64,000 nt of DNA from Streptomyces sp. HPF1205 (GTDB taxonomy: Bacteria; Actinomycetota; Actinomycetes; Streptomycetales; Streptomycetaceae), in assembly GCF_020400825.1 (NCBI RefSeq), contig NZ_JAINVH010000015.1:1-64000 (forward strand), given 5' to 3'. The translations under genes were made by a program, and so were the position numbers. Under the pieces are notes generated by a model. It was not told the origin of the DNA. It did no database searches and worked only from the letters and a program-made list of their open reading frames with translations. Shown here piece after piece: positions 2,320 to 12,704 of this stretch (positions are counted from its first letter, which is position 1; the number at the start of each line of letters is the position of its first letter).

Positions 2320-3399
2320 GTGGCGCGGACGGTGGCGGGAGCCGAGGAGAGCGCGGCGCTGGGGAGGGCGCGGGCGGGGGACGGGGAGGCGTTCCGGCGG
2401 CTTGTGGAACCGTACCGGCGCGAACTCCAGCTGCACTGCTACCGCATCCTGGGCTCGGTGCACGACGCGGAGGATCTGCTGCAGGAGACGCTGCTGGCGG
2501 CGTGGCGGGGGCTGGGGGGATACGAGGGCCGGGCGTCGGTGCGGACGTGGCTGTACAGGATCGCGACCAATCGCTGTCTGAACGCGCTGCGGGACGGCGC
2601 CAGGCGGCCGTCGCAGGAGGCGTCGGGGTGGTGGCGTGCGGAGGTGCCGTGGCCGGAGCCGCAGCGGCGGCTGGCCGAGCCGAGCCGGCTGGAGCCGTAT
2701 CCGGACGTGCTGCTCGACGGGCTGCCGGACCGGGCGCCTGGGCCCGAGGCGCGGTACGAGGCGCGGGAGGCGGTGTCGCTGGCGTTCCTGACGGCGCTGC
2801 AGCAGTTGCCGGCCAGGCAGCGGGCGGTGCTGGTGCTGCGCGATGTGCTGGGGTTCCGGGCGGCCGAGACGGCCGCGATGCTGGGCGCGAGTGAGAGCGC
2901 GGTCACGAGCGCGCTCAAGCGGGCGCGGGCCGGTCTGGACGCGCAGGTGGCAGGGGCGGGGCGGGAAGAGGCGCCGCTTCCGGGTTCGGCGCGGGAGCGG
3001 CGGATCCTGGACGGCATGGCGCGGGCCTTCGAGACGGGCGACGTCGACGCGATCGTGGCGCTGCTGACGGACGACGCGTGGCTGACGATGCCGCCGCTGC
3101 CGCTGGAGTACCAGGGGGCGGCGGCGGTGGGGGACTTCCTGCGGACGGTCGCGCTGCGGGACGGCCGTACGTACGTGATGGTGCCGACGCGGGCGAACGG
3201 GCAGCCGGCTTTCGGGACGTACCGGCGCGATCCGCGCAGTCCTGTTCTGCGGCGGCACGGGGTGCTGGTGCTGACCCTCGCCGGGGACCGGGTCGCGATG
3301 ATGACGCGGTTCATGGACACCGCGCTGTTGGCGGCGTTCGGGCTGCCGGGGTCGCTGCGCGAGGGAGGGGGGTGGCCCGCGTCCCGCGGTGTCTCATGA
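2320..3399 (+). CDS. ECF sigma factor with C-terminal SnoaL-like domain
   Basis: A 359-aa sigma-70 family factor of the long ECF kind. Region 2 is at about residues 15-85 (YRILGSVHDAEDLLQETLLAAWRG, then FRTWLYRIATN-like RASVRTWLYRIATNRCLN). Region 4 is at about 150-215 (LPARQRAVLVLRDVLGF, then SESAVTSALKRAR). A tail of about 130 residues (RRILDGMARAFETGDVDAIVALLTDDAWLTMPP) looks like the SnoaL/NTF2 fold found in ECF41/ECF56-type factors, where the extension acts in cis in place of an anti-sigma protein. GTG 2320 was chosen because GAGAGGAG lies at 2305-2312. No anti-sigma gene is next to it. Confidence 0.88.
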   Translation: MARTVAGAEESAALGRARAGDGEAFRRLVEPYRRELQLHCYRILGSVHDAEDLLQETLLAAWRGLGGYEGRASVRTWLYRIATNRCLNALRDGARRPSQEASGWWRAEVPWPEPQRRLAEPSRLEPYPDVLLDGLPDRAPGPEARYEAREAVSLAFLTALQQLPARQRAVLVLRDVLGFRAAETAAMLGASESAVTSALKRARAGLDAQVAGAGREEAPLPGSARERRILDGMARAFETGDVDAIVALLTDDAWLTMPPLPLEYQGAAAVGDFLRTVALRDGRTYVMVPTRANGQPAFGTYRRDPRSPVLRRHGVLVLTLAGDRVAMMTRFMDTALLAAFGLPGSLREGGGWPASRGVS

Positions 3400-3801
3400 G
3401 TGGCCGCGGGCCGGTTCCGGCTCGTGCCGCGGCGTCTGCTCCTGCCGGAGGAGGAGGAGCGGTGTGGTCAGGATGAGCAGTCCCGTGACGGTGAGAGCGG
3501 TGCGCGGGCCGGTGGCGTCGGCGAGCAGCCCGGCGAGCGCGGTGAGGACGGCGATGGACGCCTGCTGCCCGATCGACCAGGCCGACAGGGTGCGGGCGAC
3601 CAGATGCTTGGGAGTCTGTTCGAGCCGGTAGGTGGCGAGCACCGGGCCGTACAGGCTCATGTTGACGATGATCGCCAGCTCGACGGTCATCACGGTGACG
3701 AGGCCGACGACGCCGGGACGGACGAAGGCCAGGCCGATCAGCCAGACGGCGCGCAGGGTGCCGACGGTCCGGAAGACCCACTGCCGGCCGAAGCGGGCCA
3801 C
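3394..3801 (-). pseudogene. Truncated MFS permease, C-terminal fragment
   Basis: About 135 codons encode only the last four or so helices of a major facilitator permease (VWLIGLAFVRPGVVGLVTVMTVELAIIVNMSLYGPVLATY, then ARTLSAWSIGQQASIAVLTALAGLLADATGPR). Intact relatives run to about 400 aa. The coding frame continues upstream of the GTG at 3801 for about nine codons and then meets a TGA inside the 24-bp tandem repeat, so the 5' two thirds are gone and are not elsewhere in the window. Its 3' end overlaps the sigma gene. It is probably a deletion remnant; a functional small membrane protein is less likely. Confidence 0.7.
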
Positions 3802-3822: not shown

Positions 3823-3900
3823 CGGACCGCGTCAATGGATGCGGACGCACCCGCGTCAATGGATGCGGACGCACCCGCGTCAATGGATGCGGACCGCGTC
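3823..3900. repeat. 24-bp tandem repeat at a gene-truncation junction
   Basis: Two perfect 24-bp units (3841-3864 and 3865-3888) begin GCGGACGCAC and end GTCAATGGAT. They are flanked by partial units, and the 11-bp sequence CGGACCGCGTC occurs at both edges (3823-3833 and 3890-3900). Read on the - strand, each unit contains CATCCATTGA, which is the stop region of the VirD4-like gene, so that gene's end has been multiplied in tandem. The period is a multiple of three. The repeat lies exactly between the truncated MFS fragment and the short C-terminus of the VirD4-like protein. Confidence 0.9.
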
Positions 3901-5727
3901 GGGGACGGCGGGGGGCAGGGTGTCCGCGGTGTCGTCGCCGAAGGCCAGGCGGACGTCGGCGGACTGCCACAGGGGTGAGTGCCAGCGGGCGAGGGCCTGT
4001 TCGGGGGAGCGCAGGACGGCGAGGGTGGGCAGGCCCGAGGCGTGGCCGGTGGACAGGAGGGTGGGGAGCTGGGGGAGAGGGGCCAGGGCGGCGACATCGT
4101 CGAGGACGAAGGTGAGTGGTGGGTCGAGCCGGCCGGCGGATGACCCTGCGGCCATGCGCCGGCCGTGCTCGACCACGCTGGAGACGAGTGCGGTGAGCAG
4201 GGGCATCGCACCCGGGCGTGACTTGGGGTCCTCGATCCGCTCACCCACTACGTACAGCGTTCCCCGTTCGGAGACGAACGACTCCAGGTCGAGGCCGCCG
4301 GCAGCGGCCTGTCTCGGAGGGTTGCACGCGTCGCGGATGTGGACGGACCCCAGGGGCTGGAGGATGTGGCGGATGAGCGCCTGGGCGGCGTCGCGGCGGT
4401 CGGGGTGGGCGTGCAGGACCGATTCGAGTTCGCCGCTCCAGCCGCTGGTGGCGGCGGTGTGGGTGCGCAGGATGCGGACCGCCTCGCCGGCGCCTGCCCC
4501 GGATTCGGGCCGGGCGGAGCCGCGTCTGGTGTCGCTCGCCGCCCAGCGCTGGATCTGCCGGAACGGGCGGCCGTCGACGGCCGCCGCGTGCAGCCAGCAG
4601 CGCAGCAGCGTGACGGCGGTGTCGTGGACGATGGCCTCGTCGGGGCGGGCGGGGCGCAGGGGGGCGAGGAGCGCGGCGGCCCGTATCGAGGCGTCCTGGG
4701 GGTTTTCGCAGCCGGTGTGCGGTGCCCAGCGCAGCCGCCCGGGGACGTCGAGGAGGTGGGCGGGGTCGTAGACGTGGACGGGACCGAGCTTGGCGCGGTT
4801 GCCGACGGTCTGGTGGTACGTGTCGGGGTCCGCGGTGGTGATCACGACCGGTCCCGCGGCGGCCAGGACGGCGGGCTGGATGACGCGCTTGGCCTTGTCG
4901 CCGCGCTCGCGGGCGAACAGGGCGTAGGTGCGGGTGATCTCGCCGTCGGCGAAGGGGTGGGCGGCGGTGCGTGCGCTGGGCTCGGGGGTGACGGCGGGCA
5001 GGACGGAGGTGGGGGCGTCGTCGCGGCCGGGGGCTCCGGGGGCTCCGGGGGCGTCCGGTGCTCCTGGGGCGCCGGGCGGAGGGACGGCCTGCGGGACGGT
5101 GCGGAACCAGGCGTCGAGGGTGTCGTCGCGGTGGGGTGCGGCCGGCCGCCGGGGGGCGGGCACGGCGGCGGTGGGGCCGGTGGGCGCGGCCTGGAGGCCG
5201 GTGCCGGGGCCGGTGCCGGGGCCTGCCCCGGAGTCCGCCCCCGTGCCGGGCTCGGCGTAGTCGGCCTGGGCGTCGTCGGCCTCGGCGTAGTCGGGCTCCG
5301 GGCCGGCCGTGGGCCGGCGGGCGGCCCGGGGCGTGCGGGCTGGGCGGGCGGGGGTGTCGCGGGGGCGCCGGGGCGCGGGCCGGCGGCGGCCGCGCAGCCG
5401 GGCGAGGGTGTTGACCACCCAGACGGCGAGCACGATCAGCACCATGAACTGGCTGATGAACACGCCCCAGAACAGCCCGGAGTCGGGCAGTCCCGCGGGG
5501 TCGGCGCCGTTCCAGGCGCCGGGGATGTCGTGCGGGTCGGAGATCAGTGCGCGCATGGCCCGCGGGGTGCGGGTGAAGTGGGCGTCGCCCGGCCAGTGGC
5601 CGTGGGCGAGCAGCCCGGCGATTCCGGTGCCGCTCCACACCAGGAAGGTCACCGCGAGCAGGACGGCGATGATGCCGACGACCAGGCCGTCCGGCAGGCC
5701 GCCCTCGTCCCTCTTCCGGTCCGCCAT
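3880..5727 (-). CDS. VirD4/TraG-like coupling protein, degenerate P-loop
   Basis: A 615-aa membrane protein with two N-terminal helices (about 14-33 and 84-107), a Pro/Ala-rich linker (110-240) and a C-terminal domain of the T4SS coupling-protein family. The family is recognised from GPVVITTADPDTY (292-304), GPVHVYDP (315-322) and LAPLPQLPTLLSTGHASGLP near 547-567. Where the Walker A loop belongs, the sequence reads LFARERGDKAKRVIQPAVL (270-288), with no GxxGxGKT. Walker B is LDDV rather than LDEA. The C-terminus ends in a tandem repeat and seems short. It is the last gene of the T4SS-like operon, the position of SCO4126 (cmdA) as I recall the cmd cluster. It may be a pseudo-ATPase scaffold. 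Start ATG 5727 follows AAGGAGGT. Confidence 0.78.
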   Translation of the reverse strand: MADRKRDEGGLPDGLVVGIIAVLLAVTFLVWSGTGIAGLLAHGHWPGDAHFTRTPRAMRALISDPHDIPGAWNGADPAGLPDSGLFWGVFISQFMVLIVLAVWVVNTLARLRGRRRPAPRRPRDTPARPARTPRAARRPTAGPEPDYAEADDAQADYAEPGTGADSGAGPGTGPGTGLQAAPTGPTAAVPAPRRPAAPHRDDTLDAWFRTVPQAVPPPGAPGAPDAPGAPGAPGRDDAPTSVLPAVTPEPSARTAAHPFADGEITRTYALFARERGDKAKRVIQPAVLAAAGPVVITTADPDTYHQTVGNRAKLGPVHVYDPAHLLDVPGRLRWAPHTGCENPQDASIRAAALLAPLRPARPDEAIVHDTAVTLLRCWLHAAAVDGRPFRQIQRWAASDTRRGSARPESGAGAGEAVRILRTHTAATSGWSGELESVLHAHPDRRDAAQALIRHILQPLGSVHIRDACNPPRQAAAGGLDLESFVSERGTLYVVGERIEDPKSRPGAMPLLTALVSSVVEHGRRMAAGSSAGRLDPPLTFVLDDVAALAPLPQLPTLLSTGHASGLPTLAVLRSPEQALARWHSPLWQSADVRLAFGDDTADTLPPAVPDAVRIH

Positions 5728-5750: not shown

Positions 5751-7172
5751 TCACGCCACCTCGTCGGCCATCTGCTTGGCGAGCGCGACTTCGGCGGCGG
5801 CATGCGCCTCGGCCCGGGCCGCCGCTTCGGCTTCGGCCTCGGCTTCCTGCTCCGCCCGCTGCTGCGAGCTCTCGGTCATGGCGCGGTCGGTGAACACCAG
5901 CGGCCGTTCGGCCTCGGTGACCAGGTGCTTGACGACCTGTACGTTGCCGTTGACGTCCCAGACGGCGATGCCGGGCGTCAGGGTGGGAATGATCTCCACC
6001 GCCCAGCGCGGCAGGCCCAGGACCCGTCCGGTGGCGCGGGCCTCGTCGGCCTTCTGGGCGTAGATGGTGCGGGTGGAGGCCATCTTCAGGATCGCGGCGG
6101 CCTCCTTGGCGGCGGCGCCGTCCACGACGTCGGACAGGTGGTGGACGACGGCGACGAAGGACAGGCCGAGGCGGCGGCCGAACTTCAGCAGCCGCTGGAA
6201 GAGCTGGGCGACGAACGGCGAGTTGATGATGTGCCAGGCCTCTTCGACCAGGAAGATGCGCTTCTTGCGGTCCGGGCGGATCCAGGTGTGCTCCAGCCAC
6301 ACGCCGACGATCGCCATGAGGATGGGCATGGCGATCGAGTTGCGGTCGATGTGGGACAGGTCGAAGACGATCAGCGGGGAGTCCAGGTCGATGCCGGAGC
6401 TGGTCGGGCCGTCGAACATGCCGCGCAGGTCGCCGTCGACGAGGCGGTCGAGGACGAGGGCGACGTCCAGGCCCCAGGCGCGGACGTCCTCCAGCTGGAC
6501 GTTCATCGCCTCGGCGGACTCTGCGACGGGGTGGCGCAGCCGCTCCACGATGTCGGTGAGGATGGGCTGGCGGTCCGTCACGGTCTCGGCGACGTGGGCG
6601 TGGGCGACCTTCAGTGCGAAGCCGGAGCGCTCGTCCAGGCCGCGGCCCATGGCGACCTCGATGATGGTGCGCAGCAGGGCGAGCTGGCCGGTGACGGTGA
6701 TCGCGGGGTCGAGCGGGTTGAGTTTGATGCCGCCGTCGAGGGCGGCCATCGGGTCGAGCCGGATGGGGGTGAGGCCCATGGCGCCGGCGATGAGGTTCCA
6801 CTCGCCGACGCCGTCCTCGCCCTGGGCGTCGAGGACGACGACCTGCCGGTCGCGGAACCGCAGCTGGCGCAGGACGTACGTCTTCTCCAGCGCCGACTTG
6901 CCGTTGCCGGACTCGCCGAGGACGAGCCAGTGCGGGGCGGGCAGCTGCTGGCCGTAGAGCTGGAAGGGGTCGTAGATGTAGCCCTTGCCGGAGTACACCT
7001 CGCGGCCGATGATCACACCGGAGTCGCCGAGGCCGGGGGCGGCGGTGGGCAGGTAGACCGCCTGGGCCTGGCCGGTCGAGGTGCGGACCGGCAGCCGGGT
7101 GGTCTCCACGCGGCCGAAGAGGAAGCTGGTGAACGCGTCCGTGATCGCCGCGAGAGGGTCCAGCATGGGCAT
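5751..7172 (-). CDS. VirB4-like T4SS ATPase
   Basis: A 473-aa ATPase of the VirB4/TraC/HerA class. Walker A is GESGNGKS at 86-93 and Walker B is RIFLVEEAWH at 305-314; the sensor-like stretch FVAVVHHLSDVVDG follows. The C-terminus (about 440-473) is an Ala/Glu-rich helix and probably a coiled coil. Only the ATPase domain is present; the N-terminal VirB4 domain is on the next protein upstream in the operon, so VirB4 is split. It should power assembly or transport at the membrane. It corresponds to the ATP/GTP-binding member (cmdB, SCO4127) of the cluster linked to sporulation and chromosome segregation in S. coelicolor, as I recall. Confidence 0.85.
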   Translation of the reverse strand: MPMLDPLAAITDAFTSFLFGRVETTRLPVRTSTGQAQAVYLPTAAPGLGDSGVIIGREVYSGKGYIYDPFQLYGQQLPAPHWLVLGESGNGKSALEKTYVLRQLRFRDRQVVVLDAQGEDGVGEWNLIAGAMGLTPIRLDPMAALDGGIKLNPLDPAITVTGQLALLRTIIEVAMGRGLDERSGFALKVAHAHVAETVTDRQPILTDIVERLRHPVAESAEAMNVQLEDVRAWGLDVALVLDRLVDGDLRGMFDGPTSSGIDLDSPLIVFDLSHIDRNSIAMPILMAIVGVWLEHTWIRPDRKKRIFLVEEAWHIINSPFVAQLFQRLLKFGRRLGLSFVAVVHHLSDVVDGAAAKEAAAILKMASTRTIYAQKADEARATGRVLGLPRWAVEIIPTLTPGIAVWDVNGNVQVVKHLVTEAERPLVFTDRAMTESSQQRAEQEAEAEAEAAARAEAHAAAEVALAKQMADEVA

Positions 7173-7198: not shown

Positions 7199-8743
7199 CT
7201 AGCGGCGGATGCCGGTAGCGAACGGCAACGTATTGACGAATGCCCGGTGGTGTTCACGATCGCACCACTCAAGCTTCAAATACGACTTACCGGCCGAAGC
7301 GCGGATGGTGCGTTTGTCGCGGGCGAGTGCTTCCGGGGTGCGTGAGGAGACTGTGATATAGCCGACGAGGTTCACTCCGGCGGCACCGCTGGCCAGGTCC
7401 TCGCCGCGCTGGTCGATCCGGCCGTGGTGGGCGATGTCGCGGGGGTCGATCACGCGGTTCATCTTGGCCTGGCGGCTGGCCTCGGCGTCGTCGTTGGTCT
7501 TCTCGGTGAGCATGCGCTCGATGGCCACGTCGGTGGGTTCCAGGTCCATGGTGACCGCGACGGTGCGGATCACGTCGGGCGTGTGCACCAGCAGGGGCGC
7601 GAGGAAGTTCACGCCGACCGGGGTGAGCGGCCATTCCTTGATCCAGGCGGTGGCGTGGTGCCAGGGCTCGCGGGTCGCCGACTCGCGGGTCTTGGCCTGC
7701 AGGTAGGTGGGCTCGGTGGCGTCGAGTTCGGCCGGCCAGGTGTTGCGGCGGGTCATGGCCTGGATGTGGTCGATGGGGTGGTCGGGGTCGTACATCGAGT
7801 GGACGAGGGAGGCGAGGCGGGCCTGCCCGAGCGGCTGGCGGACCCGGATGTCGGCCTCGGCCAGGCGGGCGCAGATGTCGTTGAGCTCGCGGGCCATCAC
7901 GGCGGCCAGGCCGGCGTCCTTGTCGACCTTGGCGCCGCGGGTGACGGTGGCGCGGGCCATGGCGTGGCCCTCGGCGGCCAGTTCGCGGGTGAAGTGCATG
8001 CAGGCGACGAGGTAGGCGCGGTGCTGTTCCGAGGAGGTGGACACCATGGACTGCAGCTGGTCGTAGGAGTCCTTGAGCCACCTGTCGGCGTCGGGGTCGC
8101 CGCGCAGGGCGACGTCCTTGGCGTGCGCGTCGGGGTCGGCGGGAAGGGTGCGGGCCAGCATCTGCAGGCGCGTCACATACCCGTCGCCGTTGGCGACATG
8201 CTTGAGCAGGGTGCCGAACCGCTCGACGAGGGCCTCCTGGTCCTCGCTGTCGCGCAGGCCGACGCCCGGGCCCTCGATCTCGATGGCGGCGGTGACGGTG
8301 CGGCGGTCCACGTGCAGCAGCACCGCGATCTCGTCGGGGCCGAAGGGCGCCGACAGCCAGGTGATCCGCCCGATGCCCGGCGGCGGCCCGACCTCGACCT
8401 CGCGCCCGTCGAGGCGGGTGCCGGCCTCCTGGACGCCGGAGCGGTAGGTGGGGGAGACGCGCAGGGTGCGGCGGTAGGTGCGGTTGATCTCGAACCAGCG
8501 GTAGAAGGTCCGCTTCCGGTACGGCATGTACACCGCGGCCAGGGCCAGGGTGGGCCAGCCGACGAGGCCGACGATCCGCAGCAGGAGTACCGGGATCAGC
8601 AGGCCGCTGAGCATGCCCAGGCCCGCGCCGGCGATGATCAGCGCGATCTCGCCGGTCTCCCGGTTCTTGCCCACGATCGCGTTGGGCCGCGCCTTCCCGA
8701 TCAGATACGTGCGCCGCGGCTGGGTGAACGGCTGGACCGTCAC
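7199..8743 (-). CDS. SCO6880-family protein (VirB3 plus VirB4 N-domain-like)
   Basis: A 514-aa protein of the SCO6880 family. Two adjacent helices (about 36-54 and 58-72) after a short cytosolic N-terminus resemble VirB3/PrgI/TcpE. The rest resembles the N-terminal non-ATPase domain of VirB4 (EIEGPGVGLRDSEDQEALVERFG, then VGYITVSSRTPEALARDKRTI). It has no P-loop and presumably pairs with the separate ATPase encoded 26 bases downstream. The GTG start at 8743 follows GGGAGGTGATC and overlaps the stop of the upstream gene by 4 bases, which indicates translational coupling. Confidence 0.82.
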   Translation of the reverse strand: MTVQPFTQPRRTYLIGKARPNAIVGKNRETGEIALIIAGAGLGMLSGLLIPVLLLRIVGLVGWPTLALAAVYMPYRKRTFYRWFEINRTYRRTLRVSPTYRSGVQEAGTRLDGREVEVGPPPGIGRITWLSAPFGPDEIAVLLHVDRRTVTAAIEIEGPGVGLRDSEDQEALVERFGTLLKHVANGDGYVTRLQMLARTLPADPDAHAKDVALRGDPDADRWLKDSYDQLQSMVSTSSEQHRAYLVACMHFTRELAAEGHAMARATVTRGAKVDKDAGLAAVMARELNDICARLAEADIRVRQPLGQARLASLVHSMYDPDHPIDHIQAMTRRNTWPAELDATEPTYLQAKTRESATREPWHHATAWIKEWPLTPVGVNFLAPLLVHTPDVIRTVAVTMDLEPTDVAIERMLTEKTNDDAEASRQAKMNRVIDPRDIAHHGRIDQRGEDLASGAAGVNLVGYITVSSRTPEALARDKRTIRASAGKSYLKLEWCDREHHRAFVNTLPFATGIRR

Positions 8744-10104
8744 CTGCGATCACCTCCCTGCGAAGAGCCGTTGGTGGGGCCGGGGCCGGACCTGGAGGGC
8801 GAACCGCCCCGGGCCGGCCCGCCCGCTCCGGTGCCCGTACCGGACGAGCCCGGGGTACGGGAGCTGTGGGCGGCCATGCCGCCGGCGACCGGGTTGGCCG
8901 GCTGCGGGCCGCCGCCCTGGGCCTGCTCCTGGGGGCCGCCGCGGGCGCTGTGGGTCTTGATGCCCTGTTTGACCAGCGCGGCCGGGGAGGAGATGACGGC
9001 GGCGGCCTGGCTGCCGCCGGCCTCCTTGCGGCTGTTGCGCAGGTTGACCACGTCGTCGCCGAAGCCGGGCACGAACCGGTAGATCGCGAAGCTGGCGAAG
9101 ATCGCGAGCAGGATGATGGCCAGGCCCGAGACGACGGCGGAGAAGGAGTCCGGGCCGTTGTCGCCGGCGGACAGGGCGCCGGCCAGCCCGAGCACGACCA
9201 CGATGACGGGCTTGACCAGGATGACCGCGATCATGATGCCGGCCCAGCGCCTGACGTGGTGCCACATGTTCTTGTCGACCAGGCCGGCGTAGACGGCAGT
9301 GCCCAGCAGGGCCCCGACGTACAGCAGCGCCGCTCTGATCACCAGTTCGAGCCAGAGCACGCCGGCGGCCAGGACGGACACCATCGACACCACGATCAGC
9401 ATGATCGGGCCGCCTCCTATGTCGGTGCCCTTGGTGAGGGCGCCGGAGAAGGAGCCGAAGAAGATCTGGGTGTCCGACTTGGTGCCCGAGCCGACCACGG
9501 CGGTGACGGCGTCCGTGGCGCTCACCACCGTGTACAGCACGAGGGGGGTGAACGCGCTGGCCAGGACGGTCAGCCACAGGAAGCCCACGGCCTCGGTGAG
9601 GGCCTCGGTCAGCGGCACGCCGCGCACGGCGCGCTTGGCGACGGCCAGCAGCCACAGGACCAGGGTCAGGATGGTGGACGCGGCGAAGACCACGGCGTAC
9701 TGCCGCAGGAACGCGGTGTTGGTGAAGTCCACCTGCGTGGTGCGGGTGACGGCGGCGGCCAGTTTGTCGATCGTCCACGACGCGGCGGTGGCGCAGCCCT
9801 TGGCCAGCGAGGTGAGCGGGTCGAGGGAGTCGGCGGCGCCGGACTTCGAGGGGGCGGTGGGAGTGCCCCGGGTGCAGTACGACTTGGCGGGGCCGCGGAT
9901 GTAGGCGCAAGGGTCGTGCGTGGGCGTGGGGTGGCCGGCGCCGTTCGCGGACGAGGTCGCGGACGAGGTCGCGGACGAGGTCGCGGACGAGGTCGCGGAC
10001 GGGGTCGGGCCGGGGGTGGCGAAGGCGCGCGTGGCCGTCAGGACGGCGGTCGCCTGGACGGCCGCCAGGGCGAGCGCGGCCTTGCGCAGAGCACTACCGG
10101 GCAT
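8740..10104 (-). CDS. VirB6/TrbL-like polytopic membrane protein
   Basis: A 454-aa protein with an N-terminal signal sequence (1-29, ending TRAFATP). A Ser/Ala/Thr repeat (about 34-53) follows, then a Cys-containing extracytoplasmic segment and about six hydrophobic helices between residues 138 and 350. The tail is Gly/Pro-rich and cytosolic (about 375-454). This is the layout of SCO6881-family VirB6/TrbL proteins that form the inner-membrane part of actinobacterial T4SSs. The Ser/Ala repeat is coded by a 12-bp tandem repeat and may vary in length between strains. It overlaps its neighbours by 4 and 11 bases, so it sits in a tight operon. Confidence 0.82.
   Translation of the reverse strand: MPGSALRKAALALAAVQATAVLTATRAFATPGPTPSATSSATSSATSSATSSANGAGHPTPTHDPCAYIRGPAKSYCTRGTPTAPSKSGAADSLDPLTSLAKGCATAASWTIDKLAAAVTRTTQVDFTNTAFLRQYAVVFAASTILTLVLWLLAVAKRAVRGVPLTEALTEAVGFLWLTVLASAFTPLVLYTVVSATDAVTAVVGSGTKSDTQIFFGSFSGALTKGTDIGGGPIMLIVVSMVSVLAAGVLWLELVIRAALLYVGALLGTAVYAGLVDKNMWHHVRRWAGIMIAVILVKPVIVVVLGLAGALSAGDNGPDSFSAVVSGLAIILLAIFASFAIYRFVPGFGDDVVNLRNSRKEAGGSQAAAVISSPAALVKQGIKTHSARGGPQEQAQGGGPQPANPVAGGMAAHSSRTPGSSGTGTGAGGPARGGSPSRSGPGPTNGSSQGGDRR
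9947..10006 (-). repeat. 12-bp tandem repeat coding a Ser-Ala-Thr-Ser tract
   Basis: Four perfect copies of GCGGACGAGGTC plus one variant copy, inside the VirB6-like gene. Each unit encodes four residues, so gain or loss of a unit keeps the frame. It lies just after the signal sequence, where length change is likely tolerated. Confidence 0.9.
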
Positions 10105-10990
10105 AGGTGAAGCCTCCGAACCCGTTCACCGCGTCGGCCATGTCCTTGGCCGACGACGCCGTCTGGTCCCGTCCTACGGGAGCGGGACCGTCCTTCTGCT
10201 GGAAGTCGGTGATCTTCCAGTCGCCGGAGGTCCAGGTCATCCGGAACGTGTTCGTGTACCAGCCCTCGGTCACCGGGCTGGTGGAGCCCTCGCCCGCCAG
10301 GCCGAACAGCGAGGAGTACCAGATGCTCACGGTCGCCGTGGCGCCGTCGTAGCCGGTGAGTTCGGCGCCGACGGGGTTGACCCGGCTTATGAACGTCATG
10401 CCCTTGGGCGCGGTGCCGTCGCTGTTCAGGCCGATGCGCTGCAGGAACGCGGGGTCGGTGTACGCCTTGTCCAGCTGGTTCCGCGAGGCCGCGGCGGCCC
10501 GCGGGGCGTAGACCGTGCTGACGATGCGGTGCCGCGTCTGCGTGTCGAACATCCCCGTCCCGCCCAGGGCCACCGCGTAGTTCGCCGCCGCCGACTGGGC
10601 GCCCTGCGCGGTGTGGGCGAAGCCGGAGGGGATGCCGGCGGTCCTGCCCGTGACGGGGGCGACGCCGGTGGGGGCGGTGGGGGCGGAGCCCTTCGAGCCG
10701 CGGGAGCCCGAGCCGGAGCCGGAGGAACCGGAGGAGCCGGTGGAACCGGAGGAGCCGGAGGAACCGGAGGAGCCGGAGGAGCCCGAGGCGCTGTCGGAGG
10801 ACGCCGTGGGGGAGGAGGAGTCGTGGGAGTGGCCGCCGCGGTTGGCGAAGGCGATCGCGGCGATGAGGAGGACGACGATGCTGACGACGGTGATCAGGGC
10901 GCGGCGGGGCTGGGCCGGGCGGCGGGCGCCGCCGCCGTGGCCCTCGGGCATCCGGGTCCTGGTCGGGGGGCCGTCCTGACCGAGGCTCAT
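10094..10990 (-). CDS. VirB8-like single-pass T4SS protein
   Basis: A 298-aa protein with a basic cytosolic N-terminus, one helix (31-49), a Ser/Gly-rich linker (about 57-98) and an extracytoplasmic domain (about 120-290). The outer domain has the look of the NTF2-like VirB8/TcpC fold (GMTFISRVNPVGAELTGYDGATATVSIWYSSLFG, then GDWKITDFQ). VirB8 proteins bridge core components. It is the second gene of the operon, and its last 11 bases overlap the VirB6-like start. The family assignment rests on architecture and context more than on a diagnostic motif. Confidence 0.72.
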   Translation of the reverse strand: MSLGQDGPPTRTRMPEGHGGGARRPAQPRRALITVVSIVVLLIAAIAFANRGGHSHDSSSPTASSDSASGSSGSSGSSGSSGSTGSSGSSGSGSGSRGSKGSAPTAPTGVAPVTGRTAGIPSGFAHTAQGAQSAAANYAVALGGTGMFDTQTRHRIVSTVYAPRAAAASRNQLDKAYTDPAFLQRIGLNSDGTAPKGMTFISRVNPVGAELTGYDGATATVSIWYSSLFGLAGEGSTSPVTEGWYTNTFRMTWTSGDWKITDFQQKDGPAPVGRDQTASSAKDMADAVNGFGGFTYAR

Positions 10991-11150: not shown

Positions 11151-11459
11151 CTAGACGGCCATGCCGTACACGATGGTGAACAGGGTGCCGAGGGAACCGA
11201 TGATGAACACTCCGGTCAGTCCGGCGATGATCAACCCCTTGCCCTGCTCGGCGCTGAAGGTGTCGCGCAGTGCCGTCGCGCCGATGCGCTGTTTGGCAGC
11301 GCCCCAGATCGCGATGGCCAGGCACAGCAGGATCGCCACCGCCATGACCACCTCGACCATCACGCGCGCTTCGTTTCCCAGGCTACCGAAGGGTCCCCAG
11401 TCGGGCGCGATGCCGCCGATGATGGTGTTGATGTCGCCCTTCGCGGCTGCAAGATACAT
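11151..11459 (-). CDS. VirB2/TrbC-like small membrane protein
   Basis: About 102 aa with two hydrophobic helices (VMVEVVMAVAILLCLAIAIWG and GLIIAGLTGVFIIGSLGTLFTIVYGM) separated by a short basic loop. This is the pilin-like VirB2 pattern of Gram-positive T4SSs, but without an obvious long signal peptide. ATG 11459 (MYLAAAKGD) fits the GGTGGTGAG just upstream; the GTG at 11471 would add four residues. It is the first gene of the leftward operon and, with the other five, makes the six-gene set I recall as SCO4126-4131 (cmdA-F). A weak hairpin (11096-11114) follows it, before the VirB8-like gene. Confidence 0.75.
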   Translation of the reverse strand: MYLAAAKGDINTIIGGIAPDWGPFGSLGNEARVMVEVVMAVAILLCLAIAIWGAAKQRIGATALRDTFSAEQGKGLIIAGLTGVFIIGSLGTLFTIVYGMAV

Positions 11460-11696: not shown

Positions 11697-12704
11697 GTGG
11701 CGCGGAAAATCTGGCTCACCGTCATCATGGGGGTGGGCCTGTTCCTTTCGCTGATCGCGCTTCTCGTGGTGGGGACCTTCTCGGCGGCGGCGGGGCTGGC
11801 GAGGAACGCCCGGGAGGCGGTGGCGCTGGCCAAGGGCGCGGTGCCGGCCGCGTACGAGCCGATCGTGCAGCAGTGGGGCAACCTGTGCCCGGCGCTGAAC
11901 CCGGCGCTGCTGGCCGCGCAGCTCTACCAGGAGAGCGGGTGGAACCCCAGGGCGCGCAGCGGGGCGGACGCGGAGGGGATCGCCCAGTTCATCCCGGGTA
12001 CGTGGGCGACGCACGGCGTGGACGGCGACGGCGACGGCAAGGCCGACGTGTGGGACCCGCAGGACGCGATCCCGTCGGCGGCGCGGTACGACTGCGATCT
12101 GGCGGCGTACGTGAAGAACGTGCCGGGGGACAACACGGACAACATGCTCGCGTCGTACAACGCGGGCGCGTACGCGGTGATCCAGGCGGGCGGCATCCCG
12201 CCGTTCGCCGAGACGCAGAACTACGTGCGGATCATCCGCTCGCTGGCGAAGAGCTTCGCGGCGCCCGTCGGCCGCCTGGCGCCCTCGCAGCAGGCGGCGG
12301 CGGCGATCTCGTTCGCGCAGGACCAGCTCGGCAAGAAGTACCTGTGGGGCGGCGAGGGGCGGGCCGACCAGGGCGGGCGGTTCGACTGCTCGGGCCTGAC
12401 GCAGGCGTCGTACGCCTCGGTGGGCGTCAAGCTGCCGCGGGTGGCCAACGACCAGTGGAACGCCGGGCCGCACCCGAGCCGCGACCAACTGCTGCCCGGT
12501 GACCTGGTGTTCTTCGCCTACGACCTCAACGACCCGCGCACCATTCACCACGTGGGCATCTACGTGGGCGGCGGCTACATGATCGACGCCCCGCACAGCG
12601 GCGCGTACATCCGCTTCGACCCGATCGACGCGGCGGACTACATCGGGGCGACGCGGGTGACCCAGGACGGCGCGGCGGCGCTGCCGTCGGCGCAGGCCGC
12701 GTAA
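11697..12704 (+). CDS. Lytic transglycosylase/NlpC-P60 peptidoglycan hydrolase
   Basis: A 335-aa two-domain cell-wall enzyme (VirB1-like). An N-terminal helix (about 5-28) serves as anchor or signal. An SLT domain follows (about 53-180) with catalytic Glu79 in QES and the motifs GIAQFIPGTW (94-103) and ASYNAGAYAV (152-161). An NlpC/P60 endopeptidase (about 205-325) has Cys231 in FDCSG, a His at 284/285 and H300. It should cut both glycan strands and stem peptides. Its divergent position at the head of the T4SS-like operon fits local wall opening for that machine. GTG 11697 is the start. Confidence 0.9.
   Translation: MARKIWLTVIMGVGLFLSLIALLVVGTFSAAAGLARNAREAVALAKGAVPAAYEPIVQQWGNLCPALNPALLAAQLYQESGWNPRARSGADAEGIAQFIPGTWATHGVDGDGDGKADVWDPQDAIPSAARYDCDLAAYVKNVPGDNTDNMLASYNAGAYAVIQAGGIPPFAETQNYVRIIRSLAKSFAAPVGRLAPSQQAAAAISFAQDQLGKKYLWGGEGRADQGGRFDCSGLTQASYASVGVKLPRVANDQWNAGPHPSRDQLLPGDLVFFAYDLNDPRTIHHVGIYVGGGYMIDAPHSGAYIRFDPIDAADYIGATRVTQDGAAALPSAQAA

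Follow-up and report, generated by a model that had tools for sequence, protein, structure and literature searches.

The closest described counterpart of the locus analysed here is the cmdABCDEF cluster (SCO4126-4131) of Streptomyces coelicolor, whose deletion affects both sporulation and chromosome segregation, as the earlier note on this DNA had correctly stated (PMC2782261). Loss of cmdB or of the whole cluster delays sporulation and leads to aberrant branching and to 6-8% anucleate spores. Deletion of cmdA left sporulation normal and caused no pigment phenotype, while every other single cmd deletion resulted in paler colonies that seemed to carry fewer spores; the blue pigment was raised upon deletion of cmdB, cmdD, cmdE or the cluster. 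Transfer of the SLP2-derived plasmid pQC542 was unchanged by deletion of SCO4126-4131. For CmdB, which was predicted to be RecA/FtsK-like, lysine mutants failed to complement, and a function as a VirB4-like ATPase in a possible type IV-like channel has already been proposed (PMC2782261). In a transposon library, the actinorhodin down-modulators comprised SCO4127-4131 and SCO4132, and not SCO4126 (PMC6585502). Type IV secretion systems that lack VirD4 are known from B. pertussis (Ptl), Brucella (VirB), H. pylori (ComB) and Bartonella (Trw) and provide a precedent for a machine that works without a coupling ATPase (PMC12857230).

The window, a stretch of 64,000 nucleotides from Streptomyces sp. 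HPF1205, contains a gene set that corresponds to cmdABCDEF and SCO4132 of S. coelicolor; orthologues were assigned from gene order, family matches and the published description. Its nearest loci place the genome within or next to Actinacidiphila. The open reading frame of cmdA, given as 3880-5727 without a strand in the earlier note, reads on the minus strand (5727..3880), starts with ATG and encodes 615 residues; it is the orthologue of CmdA/SCO4126. The genes cmdB, cmdC, cmdD, cmdE and cmdF lie upstream of it on the same strand, and a gene for an SLT and NlpC/P60 protein is divergent. The stop codon of cmdA sits within a perfect 24-bp tandem repeat of 2.8 copies (window 3827-3894), beyond which an apparent remnant of an MFS transporter gene is found at 3394-3801.

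CmdB (5751..7172, minus strand, 473 residues, the SCO4127 orthologue) represents the C-terminal ATPase half of VirB4, as identified by phmmer, PF12846 and PF19044, and it matches VirB4 of T. pseudethanolicus (4ag5) with a phmmer E-value of 2.3e-6. Its Walker A motif GESGNGKS (residues 86-93, 6894-6917, minus strand) is invariant in 106 of 106 loci, and the cluster has, like a type IV secretion system, a VirB4-type ATPase with an intact Walker A. Walker B reads VEEAW in at least 95 of the 106 loci, with a glutamate for the usual aspartate, so that the claim that this ATPase keeps both Walker motifs holds for Walker A, while Walker B is altered. Among plasmid relatives, one from Streptomyces (L090) likewise shows VEEAW and one from Arthrobacter (L089) YDEGW. 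In the protein analysed here the Walker A lysine is at position 92, consistent with K90 of the published work. The primers labelled K404A there carry the Walker A segment (ESGNG-R-SALE) and those labelled K90A the segment NVQVV-R-HLITE, and the two names seem to have been exchanged (PMC2782261).

CmdC (7199..8743, minus strand, 514 residues) belongs to the SCO6880 family (NF042935, 180.8 bits) and lies next to the VirB4 ATPase half both in this cluster and in plasmid clusters; it probably combines a VirB3/PrgI-like transmembrane segment with the N-terminal half of VirB4. CmdD (8740..10104, minus strand, 454 residues) is a polytopic membrane protein and VirB6-like by position, its plasmid homologues being annotated as type IV secretion system protein. 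A search for solved structures by sequence gave nothing meaningful for either of the two, so their VirB3 and VirB6 roles are based on position and on the annotation of plasmid homologues. CmdE (10094..10990, minus strand, 298 residues) consists of one transmembrane segment and an NTF2-like domain according to AlphaFold and Foldseek, which is the topology of a VirB8-like subunit; Foldseek matched it to the IcmL-like structure 5cnl with an E-value of 3.4e-4 and to VirB8 (4kz1) with a TM-score (target) of 0.66, a likeness of moderate weight because the fold is common to other NTF2 proteins. CmdF (11151..11459, minus strand, 102 residues) has two hydrophobic segments and the size of VirB2, and is conserved in three other lineages described below (L094, L112 and family f3). 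No other protein of the cluster is as strongly conserved (mean column identity of 94% in 12 loci), and CmdF matches no Pfam family. Upstream of cmdF no sigma-70-like promoter was found. The divergent gene in the SCO4132/tgdA position (11697..12704, plus strand) encodes an SLT (PF01464) and NlpC/P60 (PF00877) cell-wall hydrolase and provides the VirB1-like component.

Of the two relaxase families searched for, TrwC and PF03432, neither is present on this contig, and the cmd cluster thus lacks such a conjugation relaxase in its sequence or nearby, as had been noted for the cluster before. PF03432 is absent from the whole genome, and the single TrwC-type match, on contig C100, has one TAG inside.

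CmdA is a homologue of the type IV coupling proteins, as the earlier note had proposed. The TraG-D_C domain (PF12696) is found with 23.9 bits, above the curated cut-off of 22, and the family landmarks GPVVITT, GPVHVYDP and LAPLPQLPTLL are all present. The AlphaFold model (mean pLDDT 80, 371 residues at 90 or higher) consists of two transmembrane helices, a long linker of low confidence and a core of high confidence. The predicted helices (residues 13-42 and 83-114; 5386..5691, minus strand) are placed as in VirD4/TraG. Foldseek assigned the coupling-protein fold (2.2e-8), and in VIA comparisons the core aligned with TrwB over 316 residues at a Z-score of 23.7, with Z-scores of 20.0 for the Legionella coupling complex and 19.0 for Cag-beta. 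Hence, a TrwB-like nucleotide-binding domain, an all-alpha domain and a membrane anchor are all present. When the PDB was searched with a sequence profile of CmdA, only the low-complexity linker gave matches, and a PHROGs search gave no match.

Both nucleotide motifs of a coupling protein, Walker A and a Walker B with the catalytic glutamate (DE), are missing from CmdA. Residues 270-288 read LFARERGDKAKRVIQPAVL and contain no GxxxxGK[ST], in agreement with the P-loop loss that had been read from this segment. Where TrwB-type proteins carry the P-loop, CmdA shows strand-LFARERGDKAKR-helix; in the model, a strand (268-271) and a helix (277-289) are connected by a short loop that fills the P-loop position without the motif. 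In the alignment to P-loop-bearing relatives, A272-R-E-R-G-D-K-A279 lies opposite G-P-A-R-S-G-K-A/T, and the alignment, the column counts and the loop of the model mark ARERGDKA (residues 272-279; 4891..4914, minus strand) as a P-loop relic. In this genome K278 may be what is left of the Walker lysine; the preceding glycine has become an aspartate and the following threonine or serine an alanine. As a sign of an active site K278 was rejected, because the position is a lysine in only 12 of 73 orthologues (T 25, A 14, K 12, Q 7, and others), with mostly arginine in the next column.

None of the 73 aligned Streptomycetaceae CmdA orthologues has GK at the P-loop site, nor has any of 33 further loci, which partly overlap the 73 (22 found with the cmdB primer pattern and 11 from genome sampling; the published cmdB primer sequence matched 26 Streptomyces loci with short flanks). 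On the evidence of these alignments, the P-loop loss was confirmed as universal among the sampled Streptomycetaceae. The loop at the site is variable across the family and in many Streptomyces apparently shorter by about two residues, and no orthologue in the alignment has a GxxxxGK[ST] elsewhere. The Walker B region, described before as LDDV, reads VLDDV (residues 541-545; 4093..4107, minus strand) and follows the pattern L-[D/E/H]-D in the family, compared with the usual L-D-E. The catalytic glutamate is replaced by aspartate in 71 of 73 orthologues, the other two being truncated there, and the Walker B aspartate is kept in 68 of 73. The usual VLQ glutamine has become an arginine (LRS).

These features were compared with 20 VirD4 sequences, namely 19 relatives from plasmids and other contigs and an outgroup (L094). 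All 19 plasmid/ICE-type relatives outside the cmd lineage retain [G/S]K[S/T/G] at the site, and their Walker B is DE wherever the pattern located it. With 0/73 and 0/33 orthologues against 19/19 relatives, the P-loop loss is not due to chance, and to judge from the sequences compared it is confined to the chromosomal cmd lineage. Three of the 19 come from the host genome (L087, L092, L093); besides cmdA, this genome (G000) has three VirD4-type genes with P-loops on contigs C12, C67 and C100 (L091-L093), alongside which SCO6880-family genes are found. The outgroup belongs to a different family within the order and carries the complete cmd cluster on its chromosome, with unchanged gene order and identities of 81% for CmdB, 77% for CmdC and 83% for CmdF. 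Its CmdA shows GPARSGKA and LDD; the lysine is kept, while the threonine or serine and the glutamate are gone, which is an intermediate state.

A match to the SCO6880 family was obtained in 119 of 119 genomes sampled in the order, and the cmd-type CmdC proteins form a separate score class of ca. 175-205 bits among the matches listed, with cmd-type presence scored only in loci inspected directly. Such loci numbered 92 for the Streptomycetaceae, from a chromosomal sampling that left out Kitasatospora and other genera, and cmdA follows cmdB in every one of them, with some contigs ending inside cmdA or having gaps. Apparent breaks of cmdA in L045 and L061 coincide with stretches of N, L027 contains such a stretch in the linker and L068 a linker frameshift; none of the four was taken for a pseudogene. 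In S. reniochalinae and S. diacarni (L070 and L079; related species, separate assemblies) CmdA stops just short of the Walker B aspartates.

In a further family of the order (f3, probably Catenulisporaceae) cmdA is absent after cmdB in 12 of 12 loci, while cmdB-F are conserved to the contig ends and the SLT/NlpC gene travels with them; identities are 79-83% for CmdB and 80-90% for CmdF. The genes after cmdB are unrelated there, with a block of nudix, CHAD and ppk genes in two of the 12 loci; nudix and ppk are also found 12-15 kb from the cmd cluster in the window. A profile search of three f3 genomes detected no cmd-type CmdA elsewhere, and these genomes have a different, P-loop-bearing VirD4 in a cluster of its own (L098), which could act in trans. 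In the CmdB tree the chromosomal lineages group together, with f3 beside the Streptomycetaceae and a plasmid copy from S. chartreusis as the nearest sequence outside. In a different order of the class, one locus (L112, G027:C878) has cmdB-F and the SLT/NlpC gene, with 78% identity for CmdB, and its contig ends at cmdB. The gene set that survives in family f3 is the one that matters genetically.

For closely related pairs, median dN/dS values (Nei-Gojobori) of 0.05 for CmdB, 0.10 for CmdC, 0.29 for CmdD, 0.41 for CmdE and 0.32 for CmdA were determined, from non-independent pairs and with dS uncorrected for codon bias. Within CmdA the medians are 0.17 for the core, 0.39 for the transmembrane part, 0.53 for the linker and 0.38 for the former P-loop segment, and some 60 columns are invariant in 56 sequences. 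The core is under purifying selection; the old P-loop is less constrained.

Motif loss, fold, distribution, selection and gene content as observed here, together with the published phenotypes, make it likely that the cmd genes encode a VirB4-powered, relaxase-free type IV secretion-like envelope machine in which the coupling ATPase has been switched off and become a non-catalytic accessory. The chromosomal machine would be driven by the VirB4-type ATPase CmdB, with CmdC as VirB3 and VirB4-N, CmdD as VirB6, CmdE as VirB8, CmdF as a subunit of VirB2 size and the SLT/NlpC protein as VirB1. It would descend from SLP2/SCO6880-type conjugation machinery of actinobacteria, which gave up the coupling-ATPase step upon recruitment to hyphal development. 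CmdA would have retained the coupling-protein fold and membrane anchor, with Walker A, the Walker B glutamate and a C-terminal segment being lost. In Streptomycetaceae it would persist as an accessory without catalytic activity, held by moderate purifying selection, and it would have disappeared from the f3 cluster. With the coupling step abandoned and CmdA an accessory, the machine would work with no ATP-driven step that loads cytosolic DNA, and it would probably build or position an envelope structure or cell-wall hydrolase in aerial growth; we infer the assembly of a complex, its cargo and the role of CmdA, including the placing of the cell-wall hydrolase or of a CmdF polymer.

The earlier note saw in CmdA a docking scaffold. 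As an essential scaffold, CmdA would bring a substrate, protein or DNA, to the channel and hydrolyse no ATP, and the conserved fold, the membrane anchor and the constrained core would suit this function; we nevertheless think it improbable, since the cmdA deletion has neither a sporulation nor a pigment phenotype (PMC2782261), the actinorhodin study does not list cmdA with the other cmd genes (PMC6585502) and the gene is missing from the f3 cluster. The known cell-biology role is that of the machine, not of CmdA. The silent deletion and the absence from f3 would fit a functionless vestige on its way out, as do the relaxed linker and the loss of everything from Walker B onward in L070 and L079. 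Yet cmdA is found in 92 of 92 Streptomycetaceae loci read, in some of them cut by contig ends or gaps, and the dN/dS of 0.17 in the core and the invariant columns would be unexpected for a mere remnant; this explanation is rather unlikely. That the dead VirD4 acts as a plug or regulator on the VirB4 machine and keeps DNA out of a hypha-building channel is a tentative idea, and it seems similarly doubtful that the ATPase was inactivated as part of domestication, with an adaptive P-loop loss that later permitted loss of the gene.

A working ATPase that binds nucleotide through a different loop is very hard to reconcile with the data. The Walker B aspartate in 68 of 73 orthologues and the K278 kept in some lineages might point to it, but the loop at the P-loop site varies across the family, the catalytic glutamate is replaced in every sequence that reaches its position, the VLQ-type glutamine has become an arginine and a second GxxxxGK[ST] is found in no orthologue. 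VirB4 proteins in the type IV secretion systems studied are assembly ATPases and not DNA pumps, and septation or envelope defects also produce segregation defects. Both points, and the unaffected transfer of the SLP2-derived plasmid, speak against a machine that still moves DNA in chromosome segregation, with CmdB as its sole motor and no part for CmdA, which we regard as unlikely. It would explain the anucleate spores of the cmdB and cmdA-F mutants, and the RecA/FtsK-like prediction for CmdB leaves room for a DNA-moving role of the machine (PMC2782261).

If the accessory reading with a switched-off coupling ATPase is true, the cmd genes offer a traceable case of a conjugation machine turned into a developmental one, in a series with an ATP site that is intact on plasmids, part-decayed in the chromosomal outgroup and lost in Streptomycetaceae, and with the gene gone from the f3 cluster. 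This suggests that cell development took over a conjugation engine but not the step that loads it. The reading could also account for the 2009 finding that, of the six cmd genes, only cmdA could be deleted without a sporulation phenotype (PMC2782261). The role of a type IV secretion system without an active VirD4, which a 2025 review left open for Ptl, ComB and Bartonella Trw (PMC12857230), becomes testable for a VirB4-driven machine in a genetically tractable organism. A dead coupling ATPase retained in a developmental machine was not found described in the literature.

By gene order, family matches and published description the cluster is the same operon as S. coelicolor cmdABCDEF, for which CmdA was described merely as a membrane protein; the coupling-protein homology, the dead ATP site and the absence from the sister family are not stated there (PMC2782261). 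With TrwB, VirD4, Cag-beta and DotL, CmdA shares the fold, the membrane anchor, the all-alpha domain and the TraG-D_C domain, but unlike them it has no Walker A, no Walker B glutamate and a shortened C-terminus. The SLP2/SCO6880-type conjugation clusters of actinobacterial plasmids and ICEs have the same order of VirB6-like protein, SCO6880 family, VirB4 ATPase half and VirD4; they keep [G/S]K[S/T/G] (19/19), several with a MobF relaxase nearby, whereas cmd has neither. Ptl, Brucella VirB, ComB and Bartonella Trw are, like the proposed cmd machine, VirB machines that work without a coupling ATPase and have roles other than conjugative DNA export. They lack the VirD4 gene, while in Streptomycetaceae a homologue devoid of the ATP site is retained, and they are diderm systems, whereas the cmd machine belongs to a monoderm mycelial bacterium and serves its development.
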